A DNA stretch of 64,000 nucleotides from Hoplostethus atlanticus. Its lineage: Eukaryota > Chordata > Actinopteri > Trachichthyiformes > Trachichthyidae. The stretch is taken from contig JAXDDX010000117.1 in the NCBI GenBank assembly GCA_034670405.1, forward strand, positions 1,426,001 through 1,490,000, read 5' to 3'. Each line of letters starts with the position of its first letter. Within the stretch, counting starts at the first letter, position 1. The notes under the pieces are model-generated. The model saw only the letters and a list, made by a program, of their open reading frames with translations, did no database searches and was not told where the DNA came from. The position numbers were made by a program, and so were the translations under genes. Below, one piece after another: positions 4,955-48,602 of this stretch.

Positions 4955-4960
4955 GAAGCC
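4955..4960 (+). repeat. 6-bp target site duplication, left copy (GAAGCC)
   Basis: GAAGCC lies immediately outside the left terminus TATGAGGCGCC. The same six bases lie immediately outside the right terminus at 26214-26219. This is the signature of integration by a DDE transposase making 6-bp staggered cuts. Confidence 0.85.
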
Positions 4961-4984
4961 TATGAGGCGCCAAACGTACCCCAC

Positions 4985-5270
4985 TAGATTTCATCCACGA
5001 AATCCATTTTGTGCCACGAAATTCCGTCACACGAAATCCAAAAACACTTTGTTTGATTTCGTCCACGAAATGCATATGGGCGTCTAGTGGATTTCGTCCA
5101 TGAAATTCATTTTGTGCCACGAAATCCATGCCGTCAATTTCGTCCGGCACCAAATCAATTTCGTCGATTTCGTCCGCATTTCGTCGGTTTCGTGCGACAC
5201 GAAAATCACGAAATGACTTTCGTGAAACACGGCACGCATTTCGTGGACGGAAATGCATTCCGTGGACTTA
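4985..5270. repeat. subterminal ACGAAAT/ATTTCGT array, left end
   Basis: More than a dozen copies of ACGAAAT or its complement ATTTCGT lie in both orientations within 310 bp of the tip, often as ATTTCGTCCACGAAAT palindromes. Matching arrays lie at 25965-26190 and, in the internal duplicate, at 23640-23890. Such short motifs near both ends are typical of transposase-binding sites in other DNA transposons. That role here is inference. Confidence 0.7.
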
Positions 5271-7155
5271 AAAGGTATCCTTATGCATATGCTGTCACTG
5301 GCCTACTTTCACTGGCCTATTTTCACTGCCCATTTTCACCCACTAGATGGCGCATAGGTGATGCAGAAAGCTCGGCACACTAAAGTGTTTGGCATATTAC
5401 GGCACTAAATTCATTTAATACTTAATAATTAAGGTTTGAAACCATGGAACAAAGCAAACTTTCTCCAGCAGCAACAACCACTAATTTATTGTGTAACATG
5501 GACAAGCGCCTCACGCTTGAGTAAGCAAAACATCAAAAAGGCGAGGCAGTTAAATGATAAACTGCAATGAAGTATAAGGTATTTAAAAAAAGAAAACATA
5601 TTTCTTCATCATTTTGAATTTACTGCATGGAATTGGAATAAACGTATTATTCACGCACTCGTCTCTCGTCTCCAGAGGGCACAGCATTTCCAGTGTTTGA
5701 TCAATTTAAAATCTCAACGTCCAGTGAAGTCAGCGCATAACCTTTCTAATGTTAACAGACAATTACTCCAAAATACTGTTTTTTAAATGGTTTAAAAGCA
5801 TACGCAATGCATGGGGTTAAAAGTGCGCTTAGGGAAACAAGAGACAAGTGCGTGTGTAACACCCAAGATAGTCAGACAAACTCAGGGTGACACTGTTAAA
5901 GTGAGGGGTTTATTCAGAAAGAATTAATAAATACATAAATAAACCCTATGGATGACTGGCCCCAGTGTCTTATTTAAGATTGTAACTGCCTATTTGCCTA
6001 TAACTGCCTAACAAAACAAGAACGTAACACTATAACATCCATTTATTATTACTTATTCAAGTATCTGTGAAGTATACAGTGCTTCAATTCTATTCCCAAA
6101 TGTATTGAAACGATCTAGCCACTACAAGGTTAGCCTCGTTACCACGACAACTGTAAACAGAGGCTGAGCCTATATAGAGAGACAGTGGCAAATAATACAT
6201 TTGCGGACATTTCAAGAGATGACAACACTCTGGTTAGCACCATTACGAAACGAAATAACATGTTTGAGTGATTGGTCTATATACTTCTGGTTCATTGTTT
6301 GAAATGAAATAAGAGACACATAATTCAGACAGTTTTAACACTGAACATAACTGAATTTAGTAAGGCTATACAAGGCTGAACATACGTGATCTTGATTGCA
6401 TACAATTCTAAAAGGATGAGAGGACAGAGTTCAAACTAGATTATTTTAATGGGAACATTTGGAAATTACAAAATAAAGTGCACAAACAAAGTAAAACCAG
6501 ATTACTCGTCTCTTCTCTGCTGCCTTACCTATGGCCCCACAACTGGCCAAGTAACGATTGTGCAGTTGAGTACAAAAGGAAAATCTGTACTCTCTAATGG
6601 ATATAGTTTGAAATGTAGCAAAGGCAAGTAAAAGTGAAATTACTGACTTACTCAAAAAAGTAAAAACACACAAGAAACTATTCAATTACAGTAACGTGAG
6701 TAAATGAAATAAGTGACTTCCACCCTTGGTAATTTGCCACTATTGCAGTAGCCTAATAGAAAGTACTATACAGTGTAGTTTCCCTAAAAGGGTTGCAGTT
6801 TACTCTCTTAAGCCCCCCAATCACATTCCAACCGTGGTTGGAAGTGGTAGTAGTTTTTTTTCAGTGCAGGTTTTGTGCTCAAATTTGCCGGGTGAATTCA
6901 TTGTGCGCCTTTTTTGTCCAATCAGATACTTGTGCGCCAATTTTATGCCCATGGTCGAGTTTATCTGTCAGATAGTACAACGTTACCAGAGCAGAAAGGG
7001 AGAATAATAAACCACTGGCTTATGTGGCAGGTTCAAGGCTAACGATGGCAAGCAATTGAAATGATTTAGTTCTTGGGGTAAGCAGCAGTTTACGCCTGCT
7101 TGTCGAGGGTTTGACATCCCAGGCTACACCTGTCACAGTCGTTAGGACGGGCACC

Positions 7156-9787
7156 ATGACTTCACCATCCACAAGTAGTCATCAACCTGGACCAGAGACT
7201 TTTCATTTTCCACCATCTGTGCCTGAACCAAACAGTGGACCCAACAGAACCCGGGATCATTCATCACTGGTGAGTAGACTGACCTAGGTAACTGTAAAAT
7301 CTTACCCACAGAATTAGCATTTTTAAGCAGCTATAGTCTATTAAACACAAATACATACACATTCAAATAGCAATTTGGCTATGAAGCCATAACACTAACG
7401 TTAACCAATACCATCAGGAACAATATCGTGGATCGTAGTCAAATTTATGTAGCTAGGTAGCTGTGCAATCAAATGTAAGGCTACTGGCAGTATTCACTTT
7501 GAACTAAGTTACAAAGAAAACAGACGCCTTTTTTTTTTTTAATCCAAAGCGACTTACAATAAGTGTATTTAACGTAGGTAGGCAAGAGAACTACTAATGT
7601 TAGTCACCAAAAATCATAAGCGCATATCCTCCCCATCTAAGAGCACAGCCGTGCCAAAGTAAAAGTGTAATATATATATATTTCTTATTATTTAAACAAA
7701 ACAAATAAGTAAGTGCTAAGAGGAAGACTCGGGGTAGTGTTTCTTGAAGAGGTGGGTTTTCAGCCTGCAGCGAAAGATGGGCAGTGACTCAGCTGTCCTG
7801 ACATCAGTGGGGAGTTCATTCCACCACTGCGGGGCCAGGACAGAGAAGAGCTGTGACCGTGTAGATCGTGTAGTACTACTCTTAAATACATAGCTCTGAT
7901 ACCAAGTATTTTGGTTGTCTTTGGCGTGATGACAGGTCCATTTTGCTTCACAGGCCTTCAGTTAGCGACTCTTTAAGCCTGAGTTTCCAAGTACCCCTGA
8001 CTGCAGTGTGCAGTTCGGCGCCGTGCTCAATATGGCCGGAGTGTTTGACTCCGCCCACATTGAGCACGGCCCCGTAAATTGAACATATCTCTAATATAAT
8101 CAACCCTTATTATTGATCCGATATCCTGAACAGGACCTGCTCCAGAGCAGGTTAGCCGTTTAGCATTAGTTGCTATGGCGACACACTCCGGTAAAAAGTA
8201 AAAGTAAACCACCTTTGTGATACTGAAAACCCTGGATTAATGTTACTTCACTAACCCATAATCCAGATTCGTAGTACAGGACCCTGGGTTTATCCCATAT
8301 TGTCAACAAACTAATCCGGTTAACTGAGTTAGACACATACATGAAACGTGACCCAGCTGAATGTGAGCTTGTGCATTGATAAGAAGAGCAAAACTTTTGT
8401 CAGTCAGGAACTACTTTCATAAAATAGTAATATATGCTTTTATACCACTATTTTATGCTTACATTTTGAGTTTGATATTGTGAATGATATTATGAACGGG
8501 ATTGAATGGCATCTACATGGTAGTAACACCAGTCTCATGTTAGCTAAATAAACAACGGAGGAATCCTATGAGAACAAACCAGTTACTGGTTTCTAAAGTT
8601 TTTAGCAGTTATTTTAAGTCACTCTATACGCAAAATAACTAATTGAATCTATCTTTTTGTAGGCTGATGACCAATTGAAACAACGAATTGAGCAAATGCT
8701 AGCTCTCAGATTGACCATTGCAGACATTGCACAGAATCTTCAAGTCAGCCGCAAGACTGTGTATCAGAAGATAAAGGAGTACAATATTGCTTATCGTCGT
8801 TTTACAGAGATTTCCACAGAAGACCTAAGGAGAGCAGTTGTGGAGATCAAAGCAGGTCATCCAACAGCCGGGGAGGTGTACATTATGGGACATCTCAGAT
8901 CGCGACACATTTTTGTGCAGAGGATGTGCGTCCTCAACATATTGCATGAGATTGAGAGGCATGGGATCACTGCAAGACAAAGTGGCATTATCAATAGACG
9001 AGTCTACTGGTCTCCATGTCCCAACTTTGTGTGGCATATGGATGGCCTCCACAAATTGGTGCGATGGAAATTTGTCATACATGGTGCAATAGATGGGTTT
9101 AGTCGGCTCATTACATTTCTGAAATGTGCAACCAACAACAGAGCTGCAACTGTCCTAAACTCCTTTAATGAAGCCATTGGCGAGTTTGGATGGCCATTAC
9201 ATGTACGGACTGACCATGGCGGAGAAAATGTCGATGTCTGGAGAGCCATGTGTGAGCACCACAACACTACAAAAGCTGCCATGGCAGGGAGCTCCGTGCA
9301 TAACGAAAGAGTTGAGAGAATGTGGCGGGACATAAACCGCATTGTGAGCTCACAATTTAGGCAAGACTTCTACAGTCTTGAAGCAGAGGGAGTCCTGGAC
9401 CCACTAAATGAAGTTGATCTGTTTTGCCTTCACTGGGTCTATCTCAGTCTGATCAACAAGGTGTTGTCTGAACATAAAGGGGCTCACAATCATCACTCTG
9501 TGTCAACCGAGGGTCACTACACACCACTACAGCTATACCACAGCAACCTACATCTCCTGGAGCTACACCATCACGAACCCCAGACAATAACTTTTCCCCC
9601 GCACGAAAGCCATGGCAGATTGAGAGTGGAAAACTTGCTCTTTCAAATACCCAATTCGGTTCTTCAGCACCTGAGACATGAGGTCCCCCAAGAAAATGTC
9701 ACAATGTCAAATGCAAAGGACATGTTCAGGAAAGCAGTGCATTGTGTGGGAATGGAGCTTTTAGATCAGTGGCCTCATCACTATTAG
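7156..9787 (+). CDS. DDE integrase-fold transposase (IS3EU-like), two exons, intact
   Basis: Exons are 7156-7269 and 8663-9787, joined in phase 0 with donor CTG|GTGAGT and acceptor TTTTTGTAG. They encode 412 residues. Residues 1-38, encoded inside the TIR, are Ser/Pro-rich. Residues about 52-77 form a helix-turn-helix (ADIAQNLQVSRKTVYQ), followed by an integrase core. The likely catalytic triad is D165 (HMDGLH), D222 (RTDHGGEN) and E256 in NERVERMWRD. E253 is an alternative. A C-terminal region of about 150 residues follows. The family is widespread in fish genomes, where it is often annotated only as an integrase-core protein. It presumably binds the element ends and catalyses strand transfer. 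No stop or frameshift was seen, so it may be active. Confidence 0.85.
7510..7875 (-). mobile_element. L2-like LINE 3' end inside the left TIR
   Basis: The minus strand reads the end of an L2-type ORF (RWNELPTDVRTAESL, then FRRRLKTHLFKKHY). A 3' UTR follows, with the AAGTCGCTTTGGAT and GCGTCTG words typical of fish L2 tails. The same insertion is in the right arm at 19660-20046, so it was present before the two arms were made identical. Confidence 0.75.
7971..8662. other. transposase intron 1, unique part
   Basis: Intron sequence between the TIR edge and the acceptor at 8661-8662. A hairpin-forming inverted repeat lies at about 8022-8068 (GTGCTCAATATGGCCGGAGT against ACTCCGCCCACATTGAGCAC). 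No coding sequence was recognised. Confidence 0.5.
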
Positions 9788-10278
9788 TTGTACTAAACAT
9801 CTGGGGGAAAAAACTGTCAGTACTCTTGGCATGTGATTTAAACATTAACAACTAGTCAAAGAACTGACTTGTAATTGTTAAACAATTTCTGGTATATGAC
9901 TTCAGGAAATACTCATGGTTAAAATAGTTACTTTAAATTTCACTTTCAAGCCTTTTTTTCATATACATTATGTAGAATCAAGGTCATGTTGCAATAAAGA
10001 CAAATATGGTTATCTAGTTACCATTTCTTGGTTTATTATTGATCATATTAGAAGTCTTTGCTGACTCAACTTGCAAGGGAAGTAGTAACCACATAGATGC
10101 TGCAAGAGTTATAACTAGGTTTTCTGCCATTAAATTAACAGCAAATTATATTTTAAAGTTAAATTGATGGTCTTAACTATAACTTCTCACTTGTTGATTA
10201 TCAGGCAAACTATCACTACTACACAAAATAAATTTTGATCATTTTCATAAAATGTTGTGTGTTTTATTTAACTTAGGG
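9788..10278. other. 3' flank of transposase gene
   Basis: AT-rich, non-coding. The only AATAAA-like words are AATAAAG at 9994 and CAAAATAAATT at 10223, either of which could serve as the transposase polyadenylation signal. Confidence 0.4.
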
Positions 10279-12842
10279 ACATCTGTGGTGTTCCCGGTCA
10301 AAAATGACCGGCTATTGGAAATGCATGGGTGAGACTACAAGTTGAAATTGAGAGTTCAGGAACATGTCCATCCATCAGATGGACACACTGCCACTCCCAG
10401 ACCCCTATATGCATGTGCATGTGTGCGTGCACACACACACAGAGACCTCACCCCGCTTCTTGGGTTTCCCTGGCAACCTGGAACCTTTCCCCAATAGAGC
10501 GCAACAGTGACCGCCCACTTTTTGAACGGCTCCGGTTGTGGAAGTGAATTTCCCATTAATTTACTACATTGACATTTCAGAAAATACGTATATAAAGAGT
10601 TTTAAGCCTGGAACCAAGCCAACCAACTACGAGATGAATCATGACCATAAAACATTTGATTCTGAGCAAAAAAAGATCGGAAAATGGAAAAAAGGCAAAA
10701 GTACAAGACTGTGTACATAATTATTTTAAGAGTGAAGGAACTACTCATCCCATAAACCATTGCGAATGATACTTTTCCAACAACTTCCAACCTAACGATA
10801 GTTTAGTGCGCTTCTTCTTGAATTTAACATTTGTCAATATTATAGTGTTTATATTGTTGTTGTTGTGTGTGTGTGTATATATATAGTGTTTCATATAGTA
10901 TAGTGTATAGTGTTGTCATCGACATGGTACAGTGCTTCGTTCCTGACTGCAATCACCGCTCGGGCGTCCATCAATGCCGGTTCCACCGATTCCCCACCAG
11001 TGTGTTGGTGAAGAACCGGTGGATCAGATATATAAGTTATTAAAATTACTCGTTTTTAATAAATGTGAATTCGATCCAGTTACATTAACGTAGCTAACGT
11101 TATGCTAATATTACGTGAGTTAGTCACAGCTGCATAGGATAAGCAGCTAGCTAGGTTACGTTAGTAGCTAACGTTAACGTTAGCTGACAAGATGTTCGCG
11201 GGTGCAGTAAACATTTCCATGGTAACAGCGAGCTCCACCAATCAGAGACATCGCTGTTACACTTTAGGATTGTGGGTAGTGTAGTACTTCTACATGAAAT
11301 CGCGAATAAAACATGTTTTTCTCAAAACAAGGTTGATATCTTACGGACTTGTGGCTTCTACAGGAGCATACAGCATCGTTTCACAATCTAATAGCTTGTG
11401 GTGAGTCTACCTTGGATGGTTACAACATTATGGCTAATAATCAAAATCCCCATTCAGAATATGAATGAGATTTTCACTTCCGGAACCTCACTGTTGAGCT
11501 CTATAGACTCTTTCCCCCATGGGAACCTTTCAGACAACATATTATAACATTGTTTCAATAATATACAGAAACTTTCCCACAGCTCAGGTATATAAAGCCT
11601 CCGTAGGGCCTTGCTCTTCTGTGGCAGCACAATGACCAAAACTACCCTCTGCCGGATTGGTGAGAGACATAGAAGGGCCAGAACCACAGACAGAAGAGAC
11701 AAAAGGAAGAGATGCACACGGTTCTGTCTCTCCTACTATTGGCACTCACATACGTATTCTGGCGCCCCCTTTTGGCGCAGTTTATGTGCAGTGTCCTGAC
11801 TTAATAAGGTTTTTTAGTTTGAATCTTCCGTTTTTGCTAAGCATTAGATGTGAGACAACGCAGCTTCTTTACTCACTCATCCACCTCTTTCCACTTTGTT
11901 TACGCCCTTGTAAAAGCATAATCTGTGAGTATATTTGTTCAGACACACATTATACATTTTATCCTAGCTCTATTTAGAGAGGATGTCAACTTTGAGATGT
12001 TTATTTACAGTCGTTTGTCATGATGGTTATGTTACGTCTTTCAAGCTACCATGTTAGCGGTTATGCTACAGTAGACTTCAGTAAGCTATGGCATGCTACT
12101 CTAATCACATTTTTAAGCCATGGTATTACACTTACCTTAAATACTTATCTGTTTAGATTTTCCTTGATTGATTATGAAGTAAAGCATTTGTGTATTTGCC
12201 ATTGTGTATCATACATACAGTACCTGTATTCTCTTACTTACCTGTTCATGTATCCTTCTTTGAGTGTTGAGCATATAGCTACAGCATAATTTAGTATCTC
12301 ATAGCTCATTGGTTTGAGTATAGCATTGTGTAATGCTTTCGGCAGTAATTCATATTCTTCCATTCGTATCTTTTATGTGTTTATTTAATCTTCATAGAGA
12401 TCTATTGTTATTATGTGGAACTTACTCATGTCTTTGTACTGTTTTTAGTTTCACACCGCTTCCATTAAAACACCTGAAGTCAGCTTCCGTCTTGGGTACT
12501 GTTTGGAAGAGTGTTTAACTCACTGCATAGTTACGTACGCAAACGCGTAGCGAGGGCAGAAGACACACCGTGTGCACCAAGAGACGTCAAAACGAGCATT
12601 GTGTCTAAAATGCAGTGCACATATTTGCAGGGCACATGCAAAAACCATCACCTGTTGTCAATCATGTGCATGAACCTTATTAGTGTTTCTGTTGTTGTTA
12701 CTCATATTGTTATTGTTACTGTTGTTCTCTAATATGTTCAGTAATGTGGTAAAGTGTTAATGTGTAAATAGTTTTAGGCCTATGACCTTTCTTTACTAAT
12801 AAAGTCACAACGGTCAGTTTTGACCGGTAACACCACAGATGT
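10279..12842. mobile_element. inverted-repeat DNA element with THAP exon
   Basis: ACATCTGTGGTGTTCCCGGT at 10279 and its continuation AAAAATGACCG are mirrored at 12811-12842 with three mismatches over 32 bp. The motif GGTCAAAAATGACC is itself palindromic. A third copy of part of the terminus lies at 13149-13172. No clean target duplication was found, so the superfamily is unresolved. The enclosed THAP motif would suit Kolobok or P-type elements. The interior is AT-rich, with AACGTTAGC runs near 11095-11185, and has no intact transposase. Confidence 0.6.
10924..11031 (+). pseudogene. THAP zinc-finger fragment
   Basis: ATG at 10924 opens MVQCFVPDCNHRSG, continuing to HRFPTSVLVKNRW. This is the C-x4-C start and FP motif of a THAP DNA-binding domain. 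The frame closes soon after, and no matching second half (C-H pair, AVPTIF box) was found nearby. It is probably the first exon of a decayed transposase. Confidence 0.6.
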
Positions 12843-13334
12843 TATTTTGTGCCACTTTTTAAAAAAATTAAAGGGTTTCAAAACAAATGTGCTGTTTAAA
12901 CTTTGATACAAAGTAGTCTGTGATAAATAGTACAATGTTTCCTCTGGTATTGACTATAGTCAAAATAATCCAGAAATTATGCTATTTTTACTCAAAAACT
13001 AGTTGTATAAGATCAGGTCAATGAGGCCTACAGGTCGAAGTAGGAGTGCAAAAGTGCAGAAATACTAGAACTGAAGTTGATAAAAAAGATCTAGTACAAC
13101 ATCAGGTGATAATATATGTATAATGATAGATTTATAAACAGTTATAATGGGTCGGTCATTTTTGACCGGGAACACAAAAGTAGGTAACACGAAACGAACA
13201 CAACACAAGAGTTAAGATTTGTCCAAATTTTATAGCAAACTGTTTAGAAAACTTCAACAAGAACACTCAGCAGGTTGAACAGCATTTTCACAGTATTACC
13301 AATTATCAACAAAGGTATTTATGGACACAAGCCA
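12843..13334. other. non-coding between the THAP element and the HECT-like gene
   Basis: AT-rich. It contains the extra inverted-repeat terminus GGTCATTTTTGACCGGGAAC at 13152-13171. No gene was seen. Confidence 0.4.
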
Positions 13335-13585
13335 TCACAGTTTTCCAAAGCCAACAGAGTCTTTCAGGGCTTGATTGAGCAATCTGGATAGCTCATCCTC
13401 ATTCTCCACTCCTCTTGGCAAGTACAGGATGAGGGCACAGGTAGAGCTGTATGGGATCCTGCATCCCCTACTGTCCTGATCATAAAAGTCAATGGAGCAG
13501 TGTGTGGGGAAACCCAGTGGTGGAATCCTGTCTGTTCCCGTGATGAAGGCCAGTAGCTCCTCGTATGAGACCAGATGTTTTTGTT
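13335..13585 (-). CDS. last HECT-like exon (C lobe)
   Basis: The acceptor CTTGACAG precedes QKHLVSYEELLAFITG. The exon runs through RIPPLGF, FYDQDSRGCR and YSSTCALILYLPRG to the stop TGA at 13337-13335. The motif order RIPPLGF, then T-C-A-L, then a short tail ending GFGKL is that of HECT C lobes, with the conserved Cys as thioester acceptor. The reading frame is undamaged. Confidence 0.8.
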
Positions 13586-13717
13586 CTGTCAAGATAGATA
13601 CCCAAATTAAAGTCATTTGTCAATATTGTATTTTTTATCCTAAATATAAACCTATTTTAATCATAAAAATAGTGCATGTGAAAAATATAAATTTCTATTA
13701 CCTATTACTTCAATAAT

Positions 13718-13925
13718 ACTCTGAGTAGCCCCTCCCAAGGTTTCTCCCATTTTTCCCTATAAGGTTTTGTGGGAGTTTTTCCTTGTCCTCTGTGAGGGTC
13801 TAAGGCTGGGGGATGTCGTGTACTAATCATTTATTATTTTCACATGTTGGGCACTGTGAAGCCCTTAGAGACTGTAACAGTGATTAAGGGCTATACAAAT
13901 AAATGTGATTTGATTTGATTTGATT
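13718..13925 (+). mobile_element. 5'-truncated LINE 3' end inside a HECT-like exon
   Basis: The sequence from TCTGAGTAGCCCCTCCCAAG to a (TGATT)n tail matches the 3' UTRs at 36272-36495 (+) and 63178-63400 (-). It has landed directly after the codons for SWEIF of the HECT-like exon, removing that exon's splice donor. Confidence 0.85.
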
Positions 13926-14283
13926 TAGAAATATTTCCCAACTGAAGATGGTGTCCTCTTCAGCAAATCGCCGGTTGCTGCCCTGCTCACTCCAGTTGAT
14001 TTTGAACAACTCCAGAAACGATTGTTTGGTTATATTATCCGGCGTGTCACAGAACACTGGGATGAACTCCGCCCAGTTGTGCTTCAGGACTTGCCAGAGA
14101 CCTCCACAGGAGTCCAATCCCTCAGTGAACTGATCAGTCATTTTGCTTGTTCTGTCAAAGTAGTGTGAGGAAAAAGTCAGTCAAAATGGATACAATTTCT
14201 TAGGTAAATCTAAATGATATTGGTAGCAGGTGGTAGCCCAGATATCAGACAGTTAGACAGTACTCATTGCATTTTCCTTTGTC

Positions 14284-14455
14284 TCAAAATCTAGTGCAAG
14301 TGGAAGCATGTACAAATTGAATAGAAGGGCACCTAAAACTGAGCCTGGGGGCACCCCGTATGTTACAGCCTCTCGTTCTAATGCAATGGCCAGTTAAGTA
14401 GGACCTGAGCCAGTTTAGGACCGAGCCAGAGAGGCCAATCCATTTGTGTAACCTG
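14284..14455 (-). mobile_element. L2-like LINE reverse-transcriptase fragment
   Basis: The minus strand reads LHKWIGLSGSVLNWLRSYL and, after a frame break, YGVPPGSVLGALLFNLYMLP. These are the palm-domain motifs of L2/CR1-type reverse transcriptase. The fragment sits immediately after the HECT-like exon segment ending KKNPRQ, so it truncates that exon. Confidence 0.8.
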
Positions 14456-17400
14456 TCTGGGGTTTTTCTTCCAGCAGAAGTAGGGCATTTCCAGAGCTTT
14501 GACTGCACTACGCAGAACTTTCCTCCTTCTGATAATGACAGGAGTTTCACTACTGTCAAGGTTGTCTGCTTGAAATTTCTGCAGGACAGTTGCCAGATCT
14601 GCATTATCCTAAAAATATGAAAATATCAAGAGGCATGCATATAAACACAAGCAAAGTTGCACTAGTTGTTTCAAAACATTTCAAAATACATTTATTTGGT
14701 ATTTTTCATCTAAGTTCTATGCAAAGCACTATATTCTATCAAAGTGAAAACAAAAATGTATACATTTATGTGGAAGAATAAAATTAAAAGAACAGAGAAA
14801 TCAAGTTTGCGTAAGTATTGAACTCATTTGCTTTGTTCAGGTTAAGTTGCACACTAGCAAAATTTGTTCAACATTTGGGATTACCGTTACTCAGATGTCG
14901 AATTTAGATTGTTGTTATTATTCTGAACATTGGTTTCCTTTCTGACTTTTTTAAAACTTGTCTTTCTTGCTAACAGCTTGAGACCAAGTCCCTTCACTAT
15001 CATCCATAAATGAACCATATATCCATATCTACTTTCTTTATTCCACCCTACACCCTAAGATCCCATTAGATCTAGGGAAGGGACTTTAAGATGTAGTGAA
15101 GGGACTTGGTCTCCGCTTTGTTATCAAGAAAGGCTAGTTTAAAACAAGTATATTATTATTATATAATATTATATTACGTATATAAATATATGTATATAAT
15201 GTCAACTGGATAAACATTGCCTGGAAATCTGACTCACAATTTCAAGTCCACAAGGAAATCAGTCCTGCATAAAGAATAAGTTTAGTTTGTATGTTAGTTT
15301 AGTTGAGTATGCTTGAGAAACTTAAAATAAAGTAGGGACAGCTCAGTGACTGTGAAAGTAGTAGGTACATACATGGATGGTTGCTGAACAGTATCACTTG
15401 TGGAAACCAGTGAGGGCGTTACCTCCTGTAAACAGCAAAAATGCATTAGCTTGGAACAGTTTAGGGATACATGTAGAATTTTGCAAGCTACAGAACACCA
15501 ACCTCCACTTTGTCCTCTGAATTCCAACTGAATTCATACAGAGTGGTGAACAAAAGCTCCCTACACTCATCATAGCTCACAACTTTGTGTTGTTCACAAA
15601 TCCAATAAGGAAGACATAAAGACATTCAAACACTCACCACAGCAGCTCCAGCAGATTCAGGAGGAGGACCTGTCATTTTATGATACAGAAAAAGGGCCCA
15701 GTTACAGATTCTGTGTGTGTGTGGGGGGGGGGGGGGGGACTAATGTAAAACGATTCAATGGTTGAATTATATCAATGATTGTTGATTGAAACATACCTGA
15801 CTCCTCCACTAGCTGGTCGCTGTCACAGTCCTATTGTGCAGAATTAATCTCCCATTAACATTGTGGGTTTTTTAATAGTACAAGCAAAAAACGTATTCCA
15901 ACAACAAAAACTACAATGGAAATAAGGGGGGGGCATGCCCTATTAAACCAACAGCAATTTGGACTTGTGACTTTACTAATGTGAAAGGGAATTACCAAAA
16001 AGATAAAAAACAGACTAGGACTTGATCTAGCTCTCTTGCATATGCTGCAGGTCCACACCTAAATGATTATTATATCATTAATATAAAATTATAATTAATA
16101 TTTACATGTTAATATCACAGCATCCCAATTTAACAATGTCTCACCTGGCTTTAGTTTGAATTTATCTGCTGTGAACAACATCAGATATCAAGAGAAGAAT
16201 GAGTGTGGATAGAGTTATGGCCCACCAATGAAAGGGATACACCACCAATAATCTTTTATTGTAATGTTATTCTTACACTGAGGTTATCACACGTTGTCAC
16301 TAAATAGAACTAATTTCTCTGTTGCTGCTACAGTCAACACTACAATGCTCATGCAGACAACCTTTGAAAAGGATAATCATATAAGAATACAATTTGTAAA
16401 AGCTGGTGTTATTTTCTATCAAGACCACAAATGGACAGCGTCAGGGTCTGATTTTGTGCACTTGCCTGTTCATCGGAGTCCACCAAAACTTGCTGCTGAC
16501 GTGAGGAAAATCTGAGACGTCTTGGAGGCTGACAAGGGCAAAAAAAGCAAATCAAACAGAAACCATATTAAACAAAAGATTAAAGAACATATAACCTCTG
16601 TAAATAGATGAATCAAATAATGTATGCAGTGTTTAATAGGAAAAATAAGTATACATATTACTGTCTGATTTTGTGCACTTGCCTGCTCTTGATCAGAGTC
16701 CACAATACGTTGCTGCCGTGAGGAAGATCTGAGACGTCTTGGAGAAGGCTGAGTCTGAACAGCAGCATGGCAATAAAAAAAAAATACACCAAAAGATGTT
16801 ACAAACAATACTGACATTTTTATGATTTACAGGCGTATAGCTAAACAGACAAATCCACCCCTGACATTATGGCCTTTCCACATAATGGTTAGAATTCTTC
16901 TTTAATGACAATTATCTGTGCTTGCCTGTTCGTTCAGGAAGATAACGTCATCGTCTGATCCTCTGTCCTAAGAACACAGAGAAAGATTAATGCAAATTAT
17001 TCTTTTTGTAAACCCTTTCTGTAACATGTTTTATTCTTATTAGGTTACATAAAATGCATTATCCAAATGTCCAATGCTTCAAAGTTGTGGGAATTTTAGA
17101 ATTACCTCTGTAGTTGGAAAGTCTTTCTCGCATAAAATGTATAGAGCTCCCTGACCACAAAGGCTTAGGACTTCTGCTCCATTCCATGTGAACAATGCAG
17201 ATGTTTTGGGTTTCATCAAGAAACGAGAGCCTACTAAACACTGTGAAGAAATAGTGGAAAAAACAATATGTGTATTAGTAAGTAGCCTGTATCGCTTAAC
17301 TTACAGAGCAAATAGGTATTATAAACTATTTCAAGATGGGGTTGATTTGATTTACCTGAAGATATGTGAATTGATTATTTTCACAAAACACATCACAAAA

Positions 17401-17773
17401 AAGAGAGCATATTTCTCTTCTCATCTGATCTGGAGACCATGTTGTGTCTATGTGAACTTTGCCCACAAGGCCCCTTGCAGCAAGGTTCTCCCTCTCATTG
17501 CCTCTAGGCACCTTGTATCTTCCAGCCTCTGAGAAGGTGTTACTGGGCAAACAGATGACATCTCTTATGGCAATACGTTGCCTTCCAGCTGTAGATCTCC
17601 TTCTTTTGGCAGGGTTGGACACCCTGTTGCCAATAAATGTAGACGGTAATGGAATTCTCTGTAATGAAACACATTTTGTGAATAAGTATTACAAATACAG
17701 TCCCTGTTTTAGATCAAAGGATATTGCATGAACATATTAATGATGGATTATGATCTTCTAGTATGTTACTTAC

Positions 17774-17803
17774 ATCTGTTGAATTTTCATTTGGAGATTC
17801 ATT
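17774..17803 (-). CDS. HECT-like gene, first recognised internal exon
   Basis: A 30-nt exon (NESPNENSTD) lies between acceptor CCCATCAG and donor GTAAGTAAC, phase 0 on both sides. It has no Met codon. The next exon (17658-17356) also lacks a Met until residue ~80, so a 5' exon must lie further right. The TIR exon at 21539-21426 has the right strand and phase. Confidence 0.6.
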
Positions 17804-18472
17804 CTGATGGGGGGGGGGGGGAGCACACCCATAAATGAATGCAGTGATAGTAGATATTACACTTGATAATACCAAAATAAGGGTAGCCTACACTGTTAAT
17901 GTGCCTGATACTTTGTAAATCATATCTAACCCCCATTACTTCCCTCTAACTTGAGTGACAAAGGCGATAGTTTGGTAGCAATAGTGTTAACTCAATGCAT
18001 GTACGCAAAACAGTATCGTGTAAGCCAAAGTCAGGGATAAATCAGGGAAAAAACAGCCTGGACCTCACTACAAGTGGAGTGAATGGGATTTGCCAAAGTG
18101 ATCTGCTTCCTTTTTTACCTTTTTGACTGAGTCCAGTGTCTCACATTCAGACTAATATATTTTTCCCCCTCAAAAACGCTTATTTGACGTAGGCAAAACA
18201 ACATAAGAGGCCAGATTCATAAAACTCAGCGGTAACAGCATTGCTCGACGTAAAATCTGCGGCACGGTAATATTAGCTCATTCATAAGGGCGTGGCGGCG
18301 ATTAGCTCAGCGGAGACCATTCTCCGCCGTGTCCCAGATGAAAGCCAATGAAAATCAACATGTTAATGAGGTGTTACATATTTAACAGTCGCTAACTGAA
18401 GGCCTGTGAAGCAAAATGGACCTGTCATCACGCCAAAGACAACCAAAATACTCGGTATCAGAGCTATGTATG
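17804..18472. other. intron-like spacer up to the right arm and its hAT insertion
   Basis: Contains a G10 run at 17811-17820 and a tract with GCGGCGATTAGCTCAGCGGA, with inverted ATTCATAA words at about 18214 and 18280 (possibly a MITE). The TIR match starts at 18387. No coding sequence was seen. Confidence 0.4.
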
Positions 18473-18584
18473 CAGTGGCGTTTTTATATGTAAAAAAAAT
18501 GGTGGGGCACCAACCACTTCAATAGATAGGCTACATACCAGGAAAACTACAGTACTCTGTCTTGCAGAGTGGCTTGCTTCTAAC

Positions 18585-18626
<42 letters not shown>

Positions 18627-19654
18627 CCACTGTCACAAACCTAAATTAAGAATGCAATATTTAAGCCGATACAACCAAGCTCAGATCAAATGAGCCTACA
18701 GGCCATACGCGAACAGCAAAGAGCTCAACAGTCAACACCACTGAGGCCACAACGAAGTGCACAACTTTTTGGGGATACAGATCCATTCTATGACAACAAC
18801 AGTATGACAACAACCTTAATAGATAAGCATGGACACACTCGTCACCATCTATATCAATCGATCCAGCACAACAATATGGCCAATGCACGGACCAGCACCA
18901 CAAAGGCAGGATGATACATATGCTTTCACTCACCAAAATGAGTCGATGACTTTGGGGATGAAATCATGTAACGTTAGCTGCTGAATCAGCTGGCTTACGA
19001 TGGATAGCATGGCCAATGCGTTGAGTCGCGGCTGTCCCATGGTATTGCGAGTGAAAGGCACCAAGGCACTTTACTTCCAATTTCTCCTCCAAATTAGTTT
19101 CAAAGTTCAAAGTTTCAGAGTTTCAAACCTGTGCTCGAGTATGTAATCCACTTCGTTCATTTTCTCAAGTTTGTTGGCGTTAGCTAAGCTAAGAAAGTCT
19201 CCCCTCTTCTTACCGACTAATGTTGGAGCCAGACAGAGATAACCAATCAACTCTTCAATATCAGATGACGCTGTAGTGGGGCTCCAGGCTGTCAGCCCCA
19301 CTTGTCACCAAATTCGTGTGATCTACTTGAATACACCAACACTCTGAGCATGCGTATTCCTATCTCCCCTCGTACAATACACATTGCATTGTGAGAGAGG
19401 GGCTAGCCCCACCGAGGCCTACTGCGGACAGAATCGTGAGAACGCAGTCTGAAGCAGCAAGGCAGGGACTAAAATCCTAACACAAATGATATACAATTTA
19501 GGAAGATGCTATATTCATAGATAATAAATTATAGCAGATAAAAAGATTATTATCTGCTATAATTATCTTATTAACATCATTTGTTTGCACAGTTATTTTT
19601 GGTGACAGCAGGTGGGGCTGTGCCCCACTTACCCCTAATGACCAGTCGCCACTG
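18473..19654. mobile_element. hAT-like non-autonomous element, 1,182 bp
   Basis: The ends are CAGTGGCG and CGCCACTG. It is flanked by perfect 8-bp duplications TATGTATG at 18465-18472 and 19655-19662. The left TIR at the equivalent place has no insertion, which confirms the boundaries. Inside are a (GA)n tract (18590-18624) and short frames only, with no recognisable transposase. Confidence 0.85.
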
Positions 19655-19659
19655 TATGT

Positions 19660-20046
19660 ATGTAAGAGTAGTACTACACGATCTACACGGTCACGGCTCT
19701 TCTCTGTCCTGGCCCTGCAGCGGTGGAATGAACTCCCCACTGATGTCAGGACAGCTGAGTCACTGCCCATCTTTCGCCGCAGGCTGAAAACCCACCTCTT
19801 CAAGAAACACTACCCCGAGTCTTCCTCTTAGCACTTGCTTATTTGTTTTGTTTAAATAATAAGAAATATATATATATTACACTTTTACTTTGGCACGGCT
19901 GTGCTCTTAGATGGGGAGGATATGCGCTTACGATTTTTGGTGACTAACGTTAGTAGTTCTCTTGCCTACCTACGTTAAATACACTTATTGTAAGTTGCTT
20001 TGGATAAAAAAAAAAGGCGTCTGCTAAATGACTGGAATGTAATGTA
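19660..20046 (+). mobile_element. L2-like LINE 3' end inside the right arm
   Basis: Plus-strand copy of the same L2 remnant as in the left TIR. It reads RWNELPTDVRTAESLPIFRR and then a 3' UTR ending in GCGTCTGCTAAATGACTGGA and an ATGTAATGTAA tail. Confidence 0.8.
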
Positions 20047-20227
20047 ACTTAGTTCAAAGTGAATACCGCCAGTAGTTTACAGTACATTAGTTGATTGCAC
20101 AGCTACCTAGCTACATAAATTTGACTACTATCCGCGATATCGTTCCTGATGGGATTGGTTAACGTTAGTGTTATGGCTTCATAGCCAAATTGCTATTTGA
20201 ATGTGTATGTATTTGTGTTTAATAGAC

Positions 20228-21351
20228 CAGTGGTTCCCAAACTTTGTCAAACCAAGGCACCCCTTCATAGTCAATTTCTTTTCACGGCACCCCCCCACCC
20301 CCTTTAAGCTAAAAATGAAGCCATGAATATGTTATAAGAATGTATTTTAATGAACTGGCATCAATATGAAGTGAAATAAATGAACTTCTTAAAATGAAAC
20401 ATTATTCTCAACCACTCAGCTAATGATAAGAAAAAATAGATGTCAACCATTTTGATTGACTTGTTTGAACTAAGGCTATATTTGTTGCTGTGTGTGATTT
20501 ATGCAGATTCACAGATCAATGTTTAACTTAAAATAATAATAAATAATTATGTTAATTGGTAAAAAACAAAAAAGTGCATTTATTTTGCTTTGTTCAAAAC
20601 GTAAAATAAGCCTACTTTTTAGGTTAATAAGAAAAACAAAGAACGAAAATGACTCCGCGTATGGAGCTATCAGGCATTTTAGTGGGACGTGTGAGCCTGC
20701 TGTTGAGAGCACAGTCTCTTGATGCAGGGAGAGATGGAAGAGAGCGCAACGCGTAGATCTGACTCCACTGACAGGCGATGCCTTGTCTTGCTTTACACGT
20801 ATGTCAGGGATGAGAAAGCCAGCTCACACAAGTATGATGTTGGGAACGGCAATAGCACACTGATCGCGCAGTTTGCCAGAGATGGATATTCGTGTCCCAC
20901 AAGCAGCCAAAACTTGTCCGACGACATTTCTCCAAACTTCAATTTCAAAGTGCGATCCATTTTCAGTTCTGCAAGTTCTTCCTGGGCTTTGATTGTCAAC
21001 TTCTTTGCTGATTCTGATGATCGGGAGTTGAAAGGATCGCGGATCCAGTCATAGTCTTCATTCTTCGAAGCGGGGAAATAACACTCAAACCTTTCATCGA
21101 GCGTTTTCGGATGCGCCGCTATCCCTTTGAATGCGCATTTTAACAGTTTTTTTTTAATATGAACGATTTCGATGTTTATTGCTTATTTCTTCTGTTTTTA
21201 CAATGACATGTTTCAAATGTAATATAAAATGTAGTTCAAATGTAGCCTATTGTTATGTGATGAAACGTTATTAAATAGACACAATAAAATATGGAAATTA
21301 ACGGCATTACGGCACCCCAGGGTGCCGCGGCACCCACTTTGGGAACCACTG
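20228..21351 (-). mobile_element. hAT (Charlie/Zaphod-type) element, 1,124 bp
   Basis: The ends are CAGTGGTTCCCAAACTTTG and CACTTTGGGAACCACTG, with perfect 8-bp duplications TAATAGAC at 20220-20227 and 21352-21359. The equivalent point in the left arm is empty. It contains a degraded minus-strand transposase remnant. Confidence 0.9.
20793..21060 (-). pseudogene. hAT transposase C-terminal remnant
   Basis: The minus-strand frame reads DWIRDPF, then AQEELAELKMDRTLKLKF, FWLLVGHEYPSLA and LLPFPTSYLCELAFSSL. These are the hAT dimerisation-region motifs of ZBED-like transposases. A stop follows TYV, where the family normally continues, and the N-terminal part is absent. Confidence 0.75.
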
Positions 21352-21425
21352 TAATAGACTATAGCTGCTTAAAAATGCTAATTCTGTGGGTAAGATTTTA
21401 CAGTTACCTAGGTCAGTCTACTCAC

Positions 21426-21539
21426 CAGTGATGAATGATCCCGAGTTCTGTTGGATCCACTGTTTGGTTCAGGCACAGATGGTGGAAAATGAAAAGTCTC
21501 TGGTCCAGGTTGATGACTACTTGTGGATGGCGAAGTCAT
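21426..21539 (-). CDS. second copy of the TIR-encoded 5' exon
   Basis: The mirror of exon 7156-7269. ATG at 21539 opens a 38-codon exon ending HSSL with donor GTGAGT. Only two or three synonymous or conservative changes are visible (for example P to S near residue 31). It points left, toward the HECT-like exons on the same strand, which begin in phase 0. Whether the two are spliced together is inference. Confidence 0.7.
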
Positions 21540-23639
21540 GGTGCCCGTCCTAACGACTGTGACAGGTGTAGCCTGGGATGTCAAACCCTCGACAAGCAGG
21601 CGTAACTGCTGCTTACCCCAAGAACTAAATCATTTCAATTGCTTGCCATCGTTAGCCTTGAACCTGCCACATAAGCCAGTGGTTTATTATTCTCCCTTTC
21701 TGCTCTGGTAACGTTGTACTATCTGACAGATAAACTCGACCATGGGCATAAAATTGGCGCACAAGTATCTGATTGGACAAAAAAGGCGCACAATGAATTC
21801 ACCCGGCAAATTTGAGCACAAAACCTGCACTGAAATAAAAACTACTACCACTTCCAATCACGGTTGGAATGTGATTGGGGGGCTTAAGAGAGTAAACTGC
21901 AACCCTTTTAGGGAAACTACACTGTATAGTACTTTCTATTAGGCTACTGCAATAGTGGCAAATTACCAAGGGTGGAAGTCACTTATTTCATTTACTCACG
22001 TTACTGTAATTGAGTAGTTTCTTGTGTGTTTTTACTTTTTTGAGTAAGTCAGTAATTTCACTTTTACTTGCCTTTGCTACATTTCAAACTATATCCATTA
22101 GAGAGTACAGATTTTCCTTCTGTACTCAACTGCACAATCGTTACTTGGCCAGTTGTGGGGCCACAGGTAAGGCAGCAGAGAAGAGACGAGTAATCTGGTT
22201 TTACTTTGTTTGTGCACTTTATTTTGTAATTTCCAAATGTTCCCATTAAAATAATCTAGTTTGAACTCTGTACTCTCATCCTTTTAGAATTGTATGCAAT
22301 CAAGATCACGTGTAACATGTTCAGCCTTGTACAGCCTTACTAAATTCAGTTATGTTCAGTGTTAAAACTGTCTGAATTATGTGTGTCTTATTTAATTTCA
22401 AACAATGAACCAGAAGTATATAGACCAATCACTCAAACGTGTTATTTCGTTTCGTAATGGTGCTAACCAGAGTGTTGTCATCTCTTGAAATGTCCGCAAA
22501 TGTATTATTTGCCACTGTCTCTCTATATAGGCTCAGCCTCTGTTTACAGTTGTCGTGGTAACGAGGCTAACCTTGTAGTGGCTAGATCGTTTCAATACAT
22601 TTGGGAATAGAATTGAAGCACTGTATACTTCACAGATACTTGAATAAGTAATAATAAATGGATGTTATAGTGTTACGTTCTTGTTTTGTTAGGCAGTTAT
22701 AGGCAAATAGGCTGTTACAATCTTAAATAAGACACTGGGGGCCAGTCATCCATAGGGTTTATTTATGTATTTATTAATTCTTTCTGAATAAACCCCTCAC
22801 TTTAACAGTGTCACCCTGAGTTTGTCTGACTATCTTGGGTGTTACACACGCACTTGTCTCGTTTCCCTAAGCGCACTTGTAACCCCATGCATTGCATATG
22901 CTTTGAAACCATTTAAAAAACAGTATTTTGGAGTAATTGTCTGTTAACATTAGAAATGTTATGGGCTGACTTCACTGGACGTTGAGATTTTAAATTGATC
23001 AAACACTGGAAATGCTATGCCCTCAGGAGACGAGAGACGAGTGCCTGAATAATACGTTTATTCCAATTCCATGCAGTAAATTCAAAATGATGAAGAAATA
23101 TGTTTTCTTTTTTTAAATACCTTATACTTCATTGCAGTTTATCATTTAACTGCCTCGCCTTTTTGATGTTTTGCTTACTCAAGCGTGAGGCGCTTGTCCA
23201 TGTTACACAATAAATTAGTGGTTACACCCCCCACAACCCCACCCCCTCTGGATATATTGTTAAATTTGATTATTCCAAAGAAGGGTTATTAAATTGCTGT
23301 GGATGCCGACATCAGCTGTAACGCTGTGTGGTCTAAAAGCGATTCCCTCACTAAAAGAAATAGGCTAATGACTTTTATGAATGGTAAGCTATGCAACTCT
23401 CTGTGACAGCACTGTTGCTGTTGTTGCTGCTGGAGAAAGTTTGCTTTGTTCCATGGTTTCAAACCTTAATTATTAAGTATTAAATTAATTTAGTGCCGTA
23501 ATATGCCAAACACTTTAGTGTGCCGAGCTTTCTGCATCACCTATGCGCCATCTAATGGGTGAAAATGGGCAGTGAAAATAGGCCAGTGAAAGTAGGCCAG
23601 TGACAGCATATGCATAAGCATAACTTTTAAGTCCACGGA

Positions 23640-23890
23640 ATGCATTTCCGTCCACGAAATGCGTGCCGTGTTTCACGAAAGTCATTTCGTGATTTTCGTG
23701 TCGCACGAAATCGACGAAATTGATTTGGTACCGGACGAAATTGACGAAATGGATTTGGTGCCGGACGAAATTGACGAAATGGATTTGGTGCCGGACGAAA
23801 TGCATGCCGTGTATCACGGTATGGATTTCGTGGCACAAAATGGATTTCGTCAATTTCGTCCGGCACCAAATCCATTTCGTCAAAATGGAC
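23640..23890. repeat. internal ACGAAAT array with 31-bp tandem units
   Basis: GACGAAATTGACGAAATGGA followed by TTTGGTGCCG repeats in tandem, then inverts to TTTCGTCAATTTCGTCCGGC. Both strands give look-alike frames because the unit is nearly palindromic. It marks the former element end, now buried by the duplication. Confidence 0.75.
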
Positions 23891-25964
23891 AGGTGTAGCC
23901 TGGGATGTCAAACCCTCGACAAGCAGGCGTAACTGCTGCTTACCCCAAGAACTAAATCATTTCAATTGCTTGCCATCGTTAGCCTTGAACCTGCCACATA
24001 AGCCAGTGGTTTATTATTCTCCCTTTCTGCTCTGGTAACGTTGTACTATCTGACAGATAAACTCGACCATGGGCATAAAATTGGCGCACAAGTATCTGAT
24101 TGGACAAAAAAGGCGCACAATGAATTCACCCGGCAAATTTGAGCACAAAACCTGCACTGAAAAAAAAACTACTACCACTTCCAATCACGGTTGGAATGTG
24201 ATTGGGGGGCTTAAGAGAGTAAACTGCAACCCTTTTAGGGAAACTACACTGTATAGTACTTTCTATTAGGCTACTGCAATAGTGGCAAATTACCAAGGGT
24301 GGAAGTCACTTATTTCATTTACTCACGTTACTGTAATTGAGTAGTTTCTTGTGTGTTTTTACTTTTTTGAGTAAGTCAGTAATTTCACTTTTACTTGCCT
24401 TTGCTACATTTCAAACTATATCCATTAGAGAGTACAGATTTTCCTTCTGTACTCAACTGCACAATCGTTACTTGGCCAGTTGTGGGGCCACAGGTAAGGC
24501 AGCAGAGAAGAGACGAGTAATCTGGTTTTACTTTGTTTGTGCACTTTATTTTGTAATTTCCAAATGTTCCCATTAAAATAATCTAGTTTGAACTCTGTAC
24601 TCTCATCCTTTTAGAATTGTATGCAATCAAGATCACGTGTAACATGTTCAGCCTTGTACAGCCTTACTAAATTCAGTTATGTTCAGTGTTAAAACTGTCT
24701 GAATTATGTGTGTCTTATTTAATTTCAAACAATGAACCAGAAGTATATAGACCAATCACTCAAACGTGTTATTTCGTTTCGTAATGGCGCTAACCAGAGT
24801 GTTGTCATCTCTTGAAATGTCCGCAAATGTATTATTTGCCACTGTCTCTCTATATAGGCTCAGCCTCTGTTTACAGTTGTCGTGGTAACGAGGCTAACCT
24901 TGTAGTGGCTAGATCGTTTCAATACATTTGGGAATAGAATTGAAGCACTGTATACTTCACAGATACTTGAATAAGTAATAATAAATGGATGTTATAGTGT
25001 TACGTTCTTGTTTTGTTAGGCAGTTATAGGCAAATAGGCTGTTACAATCTTAAATAAGACACTGGGGGCCAGTCATCCATAGGGTTTATTTATGTATTTA
25101 TTAATTCTTTCTGAATAAACCCCTCACTTTAACAGTGTCACCCTGAGTTTGTCTGACTATCTTGGGTGTTACACACGCACTTGTCTCGTTTCCCTAAGCG
25201 CACTTGTAACCCCATGCATTGCATATGCTTTGAAACCATTTAAAAAACAGTATTTTGGAGTAATTGTCTGTTAACATTAGAAATGTTATGGGCTGACTTC
25301 ACTGGACGTTGAGATTTTAAATTGATCAAACACTGGAAATGCTATGCCCTCAGGAGACGAGAGACGAGTGCCTGAATAATACGTTTATTCCAATTCCATG
25401 CAGTAAATTCAAAATGATGAAGAAATATGTTTTCTTTTTTTAAATACCTTATACTTCATTGCAGTTTATCATTTAACTGCCTCGCCTTTTTGATGTTTTG
25501 CTTACTCAAGCGTGAGGCGCTTGTCCATGTTACACAATAAATTAGTGGTTACACCCCCCACAACCCCACCCCCTCTGGATATATTGTTAAATTTGATTAT
25601 TCCAAAGAAGGGTTATTAAATTGCTGTAGATGCCGACATCAGCTGTAACGCTGTGTGGTCTAAAAGCGATTCCCTCACTAAAAGAAATAGGCTAATGACT
25701 TTTATGAATGGTAAGCTATGCAACTCTCTGTGACAGCACTGTTGCTGTTGTTGCTGCTGGAGAAAGTTTGCTTTGTTCCATGGTTTCAAACCTTAATTAT
25801 TAAGTATTAAATTAATTTAGTGCCGTAATATGCCAAACACTTTAGTGTGCCGAGCTTTCTGCATCACCTATGCGCCATCTAATGGGTGAAAATGGGCAGT
25901 GAAAATAGGCCAGTGAAAGTAGGCCAGTGACAGCATATGCATAAGCATAACTTTTAAGTCCACG

Positions 25965-26190
25965 GAATGCATTTCCGTCCACGAAATGCGTGCCGTGTTT
26001 CACGAAAGTCATTTTGTGATTTTCGTGTCGCACGAAATCGACGAAATTGATTTGGTACTGGACGAAATTGACGAAATGGATTTGGTGCCGGACGAAATTG
26101 ACGAAATGGATTTGGTGCCGGACGAAATGCATGCCGTGTATCACGGTATGGATTTCGTGGCACAAAATGGATTTCGTGGACGAAATCTAG
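25965..26190. repeat. subterminal ACGAAAT/ATTTCGT array, right end
   Basis: Counterpart of the array at 4985-5270, ending 23 bp from the right tip. Confidence 0.7.
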
Positions 26191-26213
26191 TGGGTTACGT
26201 TTGGCGCCTCATA

Positions 26214-26219
26214 GAAGCC
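26214..26219 (+). repeat. 6-bp target site duplication, right copy (GAAGCC)
   Basis: Directly abuts the ATA end of the element at 26213. Confidence 0.85.
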
Positions 26220-47052: not shown

Positions 47053-48125
47053 CAGAATCAGAATCAGAATCAGTATCAGTTTTATTGCCAAGAATGTTTT
47101 CACATACAAGGAATTTGACTTAAAAAATAAGAATAAAAAATAAAAGCAAGTACTGTAAAAGGCAACGATCAAGAATACAATATAAAATAGAAAAGTTCAC
47201 ACAAAATATATGAAAAGATATTATAAGGAATGAGAAAAATAATAACAATAAAATAAAAATAATATGTGCCATATATATGTGCAAGGGTATGTGCGTTAAT
47301 GTAACGCATTGAGACATGTGGAGGCTTTTTAACGTGTAGTTTCCATGGGGGGGTCCATGTTAGTGGGGGACCCGGGCCTTGTTCATTAGGCCAGTTGCAC
47401 ATGGGAAGAAACTATTTTTGTGGCGTGAGGTTTTGGTCTTGATGGACCGCAGCCTCCTGCCAGGGGAGGGGAGGGGAGTAACTCAAAGAGTTTGTGTCCA
47501 GGGTGGGAGGGATCGGCTACAATATTACCTGCACACCTCAGGGTCCGGGAGGTATACAGGTCCTGGAGAGATGGCAGATTGCAGCCAATCGCCTTCTCAG
47601 CAGAGCAAATGACACGTTGCAGTCTGCCCTTATCCTTGGCAGTGGCAACAGCATACCAGATGGTGATGGAGGATGGCAGTGTAGAAGTGCTCTATCATTG
47701 ACTTTGGCAGGTTGTACATCTTCAGCTGCCACAGGAAGTACATCCTCTGCTGTGCTTTTTTGGTGATGGAGCTGATGTTCAGCTCCCACTTGAGGTCCTG
47801 GGTGATGATGGTACCCAGGAAGCGGAAGGACTCCACAGTTTTGACTGGGGAGTCACGCAGGGTAATGGGGGCGGGGGGGGTGCTGGGTTCTTCCTGTAAT
47901 CCATTACTATCTCCACTGTCTGCATTGAGCTCCAAGTTGTTCTGGCTGCACCAGGTCACCAGATGGTCAATCTCCCACCTGTAGGCGGACTCATCCCCAC
48001 CAGAGATGAGCCCAATGAGGGTGGTGTCGTCCAAGAACTTCAGGAGCTTGACGGACTGATGACTGGAGGTGCAGCTGTTGGTATACAGGGAGAAGAGTAG
48101 AGGGGAAAGAACGCAGCCTGCCATC
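47053..48125 (-). mobile_element. LINE (RT part and 3' end) between ctu2 and rnf166
   Basis: The minus-strand ORF includes GCVLSPLLFSLYTN, SVKLLKFLDDTTLIGLISGG, WCSQNNLELNA, VESFRFLGTIITQDLKWEL and KKAQQRMYFLWQLKMYNLPK. The usual FADD is FLDD here, though both Asp remain. The 3' end is a (CTGATT)n tail at 47053-47075. It is 5'-truncated at 48125. Frame breaks after HHHLVCCCH make it inactive. Confidence 0.85.
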
Positions 48126-48602
48126 CTCAGGTGAAAAGTATCATTACTCTTGATAATAAAAAATAAATTAGTTAGTTTAGTCAGACTTTGACTTGAGCAT
48201 CTAAGGTAGATGTCCCTCTACAGAATCCACTCTGTGCTCCAGAAAGTATTAAAGTCTGCGTACTACCATCTTTTCCATCCATTTACCTAAGTGAGATGTC
48301 ATGGCTATATGTCTGTAGCTTCCTGCTTTTGCTGGATCTTTACCAGGTTTAACAAAATCCAAAATAAGTGTCTTTTTTCCAACCAACAGGCATCACCCTC
48401 CACATCCTAGTGAATACTTGACTTCCAGCCTTGAGACGTGCATGACATTGTGTTTCTTCTGATGTCAACTCTCTTACTGATCCATTCCCTATAAACTACT
48501 GCGTGCATTAAAATCACCACACAATATCTCACTTCTGACAGTGTTATTAAGTTGCACAGCCACCTCCTTTGTTTATCTACCCTGTTACATCTGACAGCAC
48601 TG
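48126..48602. other. non-coding; further decayed repeat
   Basis: No reliable coding signal. It may continue older LINE sequence. Confidence 0.35.

Follow-up and report, generated by a model that had tools for sequence, protein, structure and literature searches.

The stretch from 4961 to 26213 of the window (the whole piece of DNA analysed, 64,000 nucleotides; G000:C117:1426001-1490000) is a real mobile DNA element, confirmed as a terminal inverted repeat (TIR) transposon with arms of about 3 kb and a 6-bp target-site duplication. Taken as a whole, it is very probably an IS3EU/GingerRoot-type DNA transposon present in few copies, whose Foldback-like arms have been lengthened, and in part kept alike, by arm-to-arm copying.

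Termini and copies in the genome

The initial annotation described inverted tips bordered by GAAGCC, and both the tips and the 6-bp duplication proved to be exact (Table 1). Tip to tip, the window copy measures 21,253 bp. Within the window, TATGAGGCGCCAAACGTA occurs at two places only, even with three mismatches allowed; the mean expected by chance is 0.03 (100 shuffles), so the pair is beyond chance. In the assembly from which the window comes (632,777,144 bases, or 633 Mb, in 1161 contigs), the exact tip occurs twice, both times in this element.

Table 1. Features of the element and their coordinates in the window.
Feature	Position	Strand	Remarks
Left target-site duplication, GAAGCC	4955-4960		exact
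Left tip, TATGAGGCGCCAAACGTA	4961-4978	+	exact
Left arm of terminal inverted repeat, ~3.0 kb	4961-7976	+	BLAST; inner boundary recurs in C5 copy
Left subterminal ATTTCGT/ACGAAAT array	4961-5260		13 in 300 bp
Dispersed repeat inside left arm	7538-7868		mirrored at ~19679-20047, also in both C5 arms
Transposase main exon, HTH and DDE integrase core (rva_4/rve)	8663-9787	+	374 codons open
Dispersed repeat, ~1 kb	10492-11504		taken as later insertion; holds weak THAP-like frame
Dispersed repeat, ~0.85 kb	11721-12569		taken as later insertion
Last HECT exon, model positions 232-304 of 306	13338-13619	-	Pfam E 6.6e-10
Short dispersed repeat, 207 bp	13719-13925		98% to window 63177-63383
Piece like preceding HECT exon	13887-14180	-	by resemblance; no Pfam match
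LINE reverse-transcriptase-like fragment inside HECT remnant	14256-14393	-	RVT_1 E 0.1 only
Possible first HECT-region piece	14381-14608	-	by resemblance; no Pfam match
Right arm, with insertions and tandem duplication inside	18381-26213	-	arm proper 18381-18472, 19655-20227, 21352-26213
hAT-like later insertion, ends CAGTGGCG	18473-19654		exact 8-bp duplication TATGTATG; inside right arm
hAT-like later insertion, ends CAGTGGTTCCC	20228-21351		exact 8-bp duplication TAATAGAC; inside right arm
Tandem duplication of right arm	inner copy 21561-23850, outer copy 23888-26177		2,290 bp, 99.78% identical
Right subterminal array	25914-26213		matches left array; 11 in 300 bp
Right tip, TATGAGGCGCCAAACGTA	26196-26213	-	exact, faces left tip
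Right target-site duplication, GAAGCC	26214-26219		exact

The initial annotation called for a search for other copies and made its reading depend on a second locus with the same tip-to-tip structure. Such a locus turned up in this genome, together with shorter relatives. The second large copy (C5:6240714-6267334, 26,621 bp) has inverted arms and its own duplication, TGTTCC, on both sides, and its inner arm boundaries correspond to those of the window copy (window 7976/18381, C5 6244222/6263043). Window 8085-8391 and 8545-9196 are common to both copies at 97.4-97.5%, and 17745-18453 at 92.8%. Further shared interior, at 95.9-100% in the parts of the C5 copy compared (those outside 6249421-6260109), lies at window 9195-9314, 14075-14293, 14843-15198, 15445-15523, 15741-16784 and 17217-17744. 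Window 9315-14074 is missing from the C5 copy (5-bp overlap at the junction), in which about 12.3 kb interrupts the transposase at codons 175-181.

Nine loci with two tips, the window included, measure 21,253, 26,621, 6,270, 893, 1,291, 4,195, 2,007, 5,270 and 690 bp, the seven shorter relatives thus spanning 0.7-6.3 kb. The shorter relatives have the terminal 518 bp in common (40 of 368 candidates scored). At six of the nine loci the 6-bp duplication is exact; five of six bases agree at two (C125, C172) and three of six at C14, where the left tip is also altered. Outside this count are C133 and C5:6669 kb, with no left tip found, and C352, C276, C159, C115, C63 and others, of which one end was read. 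Inverted matches span about 0.13 kb in C125, 0.2 kb in C329, 0.4 kb in C222, 0.6 kb in C172 and 1.0 kb in C133, the member whose left tip is missing; fairly long arms are therefore a family trait, with 3 kb as the upper extreme. A relic at C226 matches the window, within the 3.4 kb compared, at 8632-9068 only, which is transposase sequence, and no arm was found there among the matches listed in the arm search (40 of 368 candidates scored).

Long, near-identical arms are also a property of segmental palindromes, and the structure might be a segmental inverted duplication or a chance palindrome with no transposon involved. This is extremely improbable, given that the second locus has related tips and shares the inner boundary, its 6-bp duplication being a different one, and that exact duplications occur at six of nine two-tip loci. 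It is also very unlikely that the element is a composite of two shorter, oppositely oriented family members separated by other DNA. The parts that such a composite would need, shorter relatives ending in the same 518 bp, do exist. However, the inner arm ends carry no tip (two tips in the window at up to three mismatches), the outer tip pair has one duplication in common, and both the inner boundary and much of the interior recur in the C5 copy.

Arms, later insertions and inherited size

Alignment of the arms bears out the earlier description of a match over about 3 kb, apart from later insertions. The left pieces 4961-5022, 5118-5478, 5476-7343, 7336-7892 and 7886-7976 have counterparts on the right side as far as 18381; identity is 93.1-98.3% (BLAST, gaps counted) or 96.2-98.9% without gaps (second piece from 5150). 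Left-arm positions 5023-5117 have no good partner on the right side, and the right side carries about 200 bp absent from the left arm. The arm stretch 5657-6275 matches other genomic repeats (C659, C336, C83, C505) at about 75%.

Two of the later insertions lie in the right arm; from their traits, we take them to be hAT-like. The same arm contains the 2.3-kb tandem duplication, whose unit excludes the tip itself. At 99.78% identity, this duplication could be an assembly artefact. Together, the two hAT-like inserts, the tandem duplication and three dispersed repeats amount to about 6.7 of 21.25 kb, or about one third (1,132 + 1,190 + 2,327 + 1,013 + 849 + 207 bp). Subtraction leaves about 14.5 kb, which is an upper bound because further insertions may hide in it. 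The label "giant form" in the initial annotation thus overstates the inherited size, and the element illustrates how tip-to-tip length can be swollen by nested insertions.

When window 9788-13700 was compared with the genome, at least 43 match rows were obtained (from 40 scored candidates out of 585), of which 36 lie on the 1-kb dispersed repeat and its surroundings and six on the 0.85-kb repeat; the remaining row is the window matching itself. Rows for the 1-kb repeat are mostly 89-95% identical, and this repeat has inverted ends (ATAGAGCGCAACAGTGA and ATAGAGCTCAACAGTGA) as well as the THAP-like frame. We considered THAP as cargo and rejected it, as the weak frame (E 4.6e-4, below the Pfam cut-off) sits in a dispersed repeat. 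It should also be noted that the window holds other repeats outside the element: a cluster of mutually similar repeats to its left (1-2919), LINE reverse-transcriptase frames at 34791-35420 and 47630-48217, the second of which additionally matches the Pfam model ALKBH8_N, and a Tc1-like transposase remnant at 61705-62175 (HTH_Tnp_Tc3_2, E 4.2e-6, below the Pfam cut-off).

Coding content and superfamily placement

An intact transposase gene had been claimed for the element. The 374-codon open frame stands, and it gives weak HTH matches as well as strong matches to rva_4 (E 2.3e-66) and rve (E 1.1e-9) in Pfam. Its intactness is less secure than claimed: the frame starts at a splice-acceptor-like site just upstream, and neither an upstream exon nor a start codon was identified. 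No zinc N-domain is among the 20 Pfam families listed for the protein. The predicted structure has a pLDDT of 90.7, and in a fold comparison of this model residues 111-304 align with retroviral integrases, TnsB and IstA. A PDB sequence search returned integrases at E ~1.6e-6, plus one row that we take as chance.

The best-scoring named protein relative is from Neogobius, and IMG/VR, from which records of this genome may be excluded, gave no relative by protein, alignment or exact tip. In the transposase search of the same genome, which scored 110 of 215 candidates, there were at least 109 matching rows. Besides the window, two loci are clearly of the same family, C5 (87%, 203 aa) and C226 (77%, 135 aa), each with one further short row. 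Between the window and C5 transposases, dN is ~0.026 and dS ~0.059 over 181 codons, values that only 18 differences underlie. Two clusters of loci with long open frames, some seemingly split by introns (L006-L009 and L010-L012), are seemingly other families of the same transposase type.

The claim of a HECT-like cargo gene did not hold up. What is present is a broken remnant, in which Pfam finds the last exon alone and a LINE-like fragment lies within the rest. The two pieces at 13887-14180 and 14381-14608 are possible HECT-region exons by resemblance, with no Pfam match. The LINE-like fragment lies between these pieces; over 22 aa, it and the LINE at 35118-35183 are 64% identical (E 5.7e-6). 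Of the 13887-14180 piece, the first 35 residues recur at 94% in the C5 copy, where the DNA matches at 99.1% over 219 bp, so the element already contained that part when the copies separated. The last HECT exon falls within the stretch absent from the C5 copy, and the 14381-14608 piece was not found in the parts of that copy compared. A protein search with one HECT-like piece gave two candidates, neither significant. In the open-licence PMC literature, we found no paper on IS3EU together with HECT, nothing on the HECT domain with transposase, Repbase and fish, and an unrelated paper only for HECT with DNA transposon, ubiquitin ligase and teleost.

IS3EU elements are described, in excerpts of PMC10045372, as having TA..TA ends and usually 6-bp duplications. 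The initial annotation had named these traits (a 6-bp duplication and TAY ends), and they recur at the two-tip loci. All 18 tips of the nine loci start with TAT, a count from a biased sample because the loci were found by their ends; the start is TATGAGG twice in the window, TATAGGG at one C14 tip and TATGGGG at the other 15. The transposase is of the DDE integrase type without an HHCC module, as judged by Pfam families and fold. By these traits the element fits IS3EU/GingerRoot, and its long arms make it a variant of this kind rather than a new kind.

We also considered a Ginger-type or Polinton-type element instead of IS3EU. Integrase-type cores are common to Ginger elements, Polintons and retroviruses, and Polintons also make 6-bp duplications (both from excerpts of PMC10045372); the fold of the transposase likewise matches retroviral integrases. 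In the same excerpts, however, duplications are 4 bp for Ginger1 and 4 or 5 bp for Ginger2, compared to 6 bp here, and TA..TA ends are reported for IS3EU. Furthermore, no polymerase, capsid or related gene of the Polinton/Maverick set is among the seven Pfam families matched in 104 of 110 listed interior frames (at least 45 aa, 7900-21400), a scan in which strongly decayed genes can be missed. We regard this alternative as decidedly unlikely and retain the IS3EU placement. Other weak interior Pfam matches (best E 0.0079 to 0.032) were taken as chance.

Proposed arm-to-arm copying and known long-armed transposons

Near the tips are 30-bp tandem repeats and the ATTTCGT arrays. Elsewhere, ATTTCGT or its complement occurs once in 5300-7900 and is absent from 8000-18300 and 27000-64000. 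We infer that the arrays are candidate transposase-binding sites. In the corresponding model, which extends to binding, chemistry, repair route and any present activity, the transposase (HTH and DDE integrase core) would bind the arrays near each tip and pair the ends, and cutting at TA..TA would be followed by joining to the target with a 6-bp stagger.

The four arms of the window and C5 copies were aligned over three segments. Where two of the four share a variant, the pair belongs to one copy at 29 sites and to one side at three, with none crossed; 61 sites are private to one arm, two are otherwise mixed and 94 columns are gapped. For the first two segments, raw identity agrees with the grouping by copy. 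In the innermost segment (7344-7868), the window arms are 94.7% alike and the right arm is 96.3 and 96.8% identical to the C5 arms. The 21 private changes of the left arm account for the low identity of the window arms, and shared-variant sites in this segment group by copy at 11 sites versus one by side. Nevertheless, this off-pattern raw identity slightly lowers the odds of arm copying. The dispersed repeat inside the left arm occurs elsewhere in the window and genome and has a mirrored position in all four arms, for which one insertion followed by arm-to-arm copying most simply accounts.

Transposon ends are in general constrained by transposase binding, so the arms might be alike through selection on both ends, with no copying between them. 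The failure of raw identity in the innermost segment to pair the window's own arms is compatible with this. Yet the likeness covers 3 kb, with a dispersed repeat mirrored within it, and shared variants favour copy over side by 29 to 3; we consider selection alone unlikely. Arm-to-arm copying, as proposed for Galileo of Drosophila, is the best explanation for the shared-variant pattern and the mirrored repeat. Repair or gene conversion would use one arm as the template for the other, with some tracts continuing into the interior. Before the divergence of the two large copies, such copying may have extended the repeat to its ~3 kb; afterwards it may have preserved, in part, the likeness between the two arms of each copy.

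Mutator-like elements, which belong to another transposase superfamily, include members with long arms. Those with multiple long TIRs (excerpts of PMC3310237) resemble the window element in having long TIRs and more than one per end, but here the duplicated inner arm has no tip. Galileo/Foldback elements are similar in their long, internally repetitive arms, which in Galileo are 98-100% alike within a copy, vary in length by tandem duplication and contain several transposase-binding sites (excerpts of PMC3573991, PMC3688188); the window element has 30-bp tandem repeats, ~3-kb arms and a tandem duplication, its binding sites being candidates only. The Galileo authors discuss repair of one TIR from the other with a tract running inward (PMC3573991, in part). 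In contrast, Galileo has a P-superfamily transposase and 7-bp duplications, with arms of up to ~1.26 kb and no transposase frame in the longest-armed copies (excerpts of PMC3573991, PMC3688188), whereas the window element has an integrase core and a 6-bp duplication, and its arms reach 3 kb in a copy that keeps an open transposase frame.

Among IS3EU/GingerRoot elements, excerpts of PMC10045372 describe the same 6-bp duplication, TA..TA ends, integrase-type DDE transposase without HHCC and N-terminal HTH; the ~3-kb arms set the window element apart. Fungal TET-carrying IS3EU elements are given TIRs longer than 30 bp (PMC12730594, in part), and Styx, which reportedly has coding sequences in common with IS3EU, a 36-bp TIR (PMC10853768, in part). 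No IS3EU element with a long TIR or foldback was among the matches listed from open-licence PMC. Teratorn, the teleost piggyBac-herpesvirus fusion, is likewise a very large teleost DNA transposon, but it is 180 kb long, with a piggyBac-like transposase and herpesvirus genes (excerpts of PMC10175614, PMC5822658); no piggyBac-like or herpesvirus family was found by Pfam among the window-element frames scanned.

It is conceivable, though we put it forward tentatively and as something short of probable, that an IS3EU-type transposon evolved Foldback-like self-copying arms, which extend, homogenise and preserve the ends from their own template, independently of the P-superfamily case in Drosophila. 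The two copies in one genome permit direct examination of arm-to-arm copying. With this element, the transposons in which kilobase arms are known would come to include an integrase-type superfamily, here in a vertebrate. If the proposal is true, DNA repair would have produced long arms convergently in unrelated transposons, and such arms would not be peculiar to a single superfamily.
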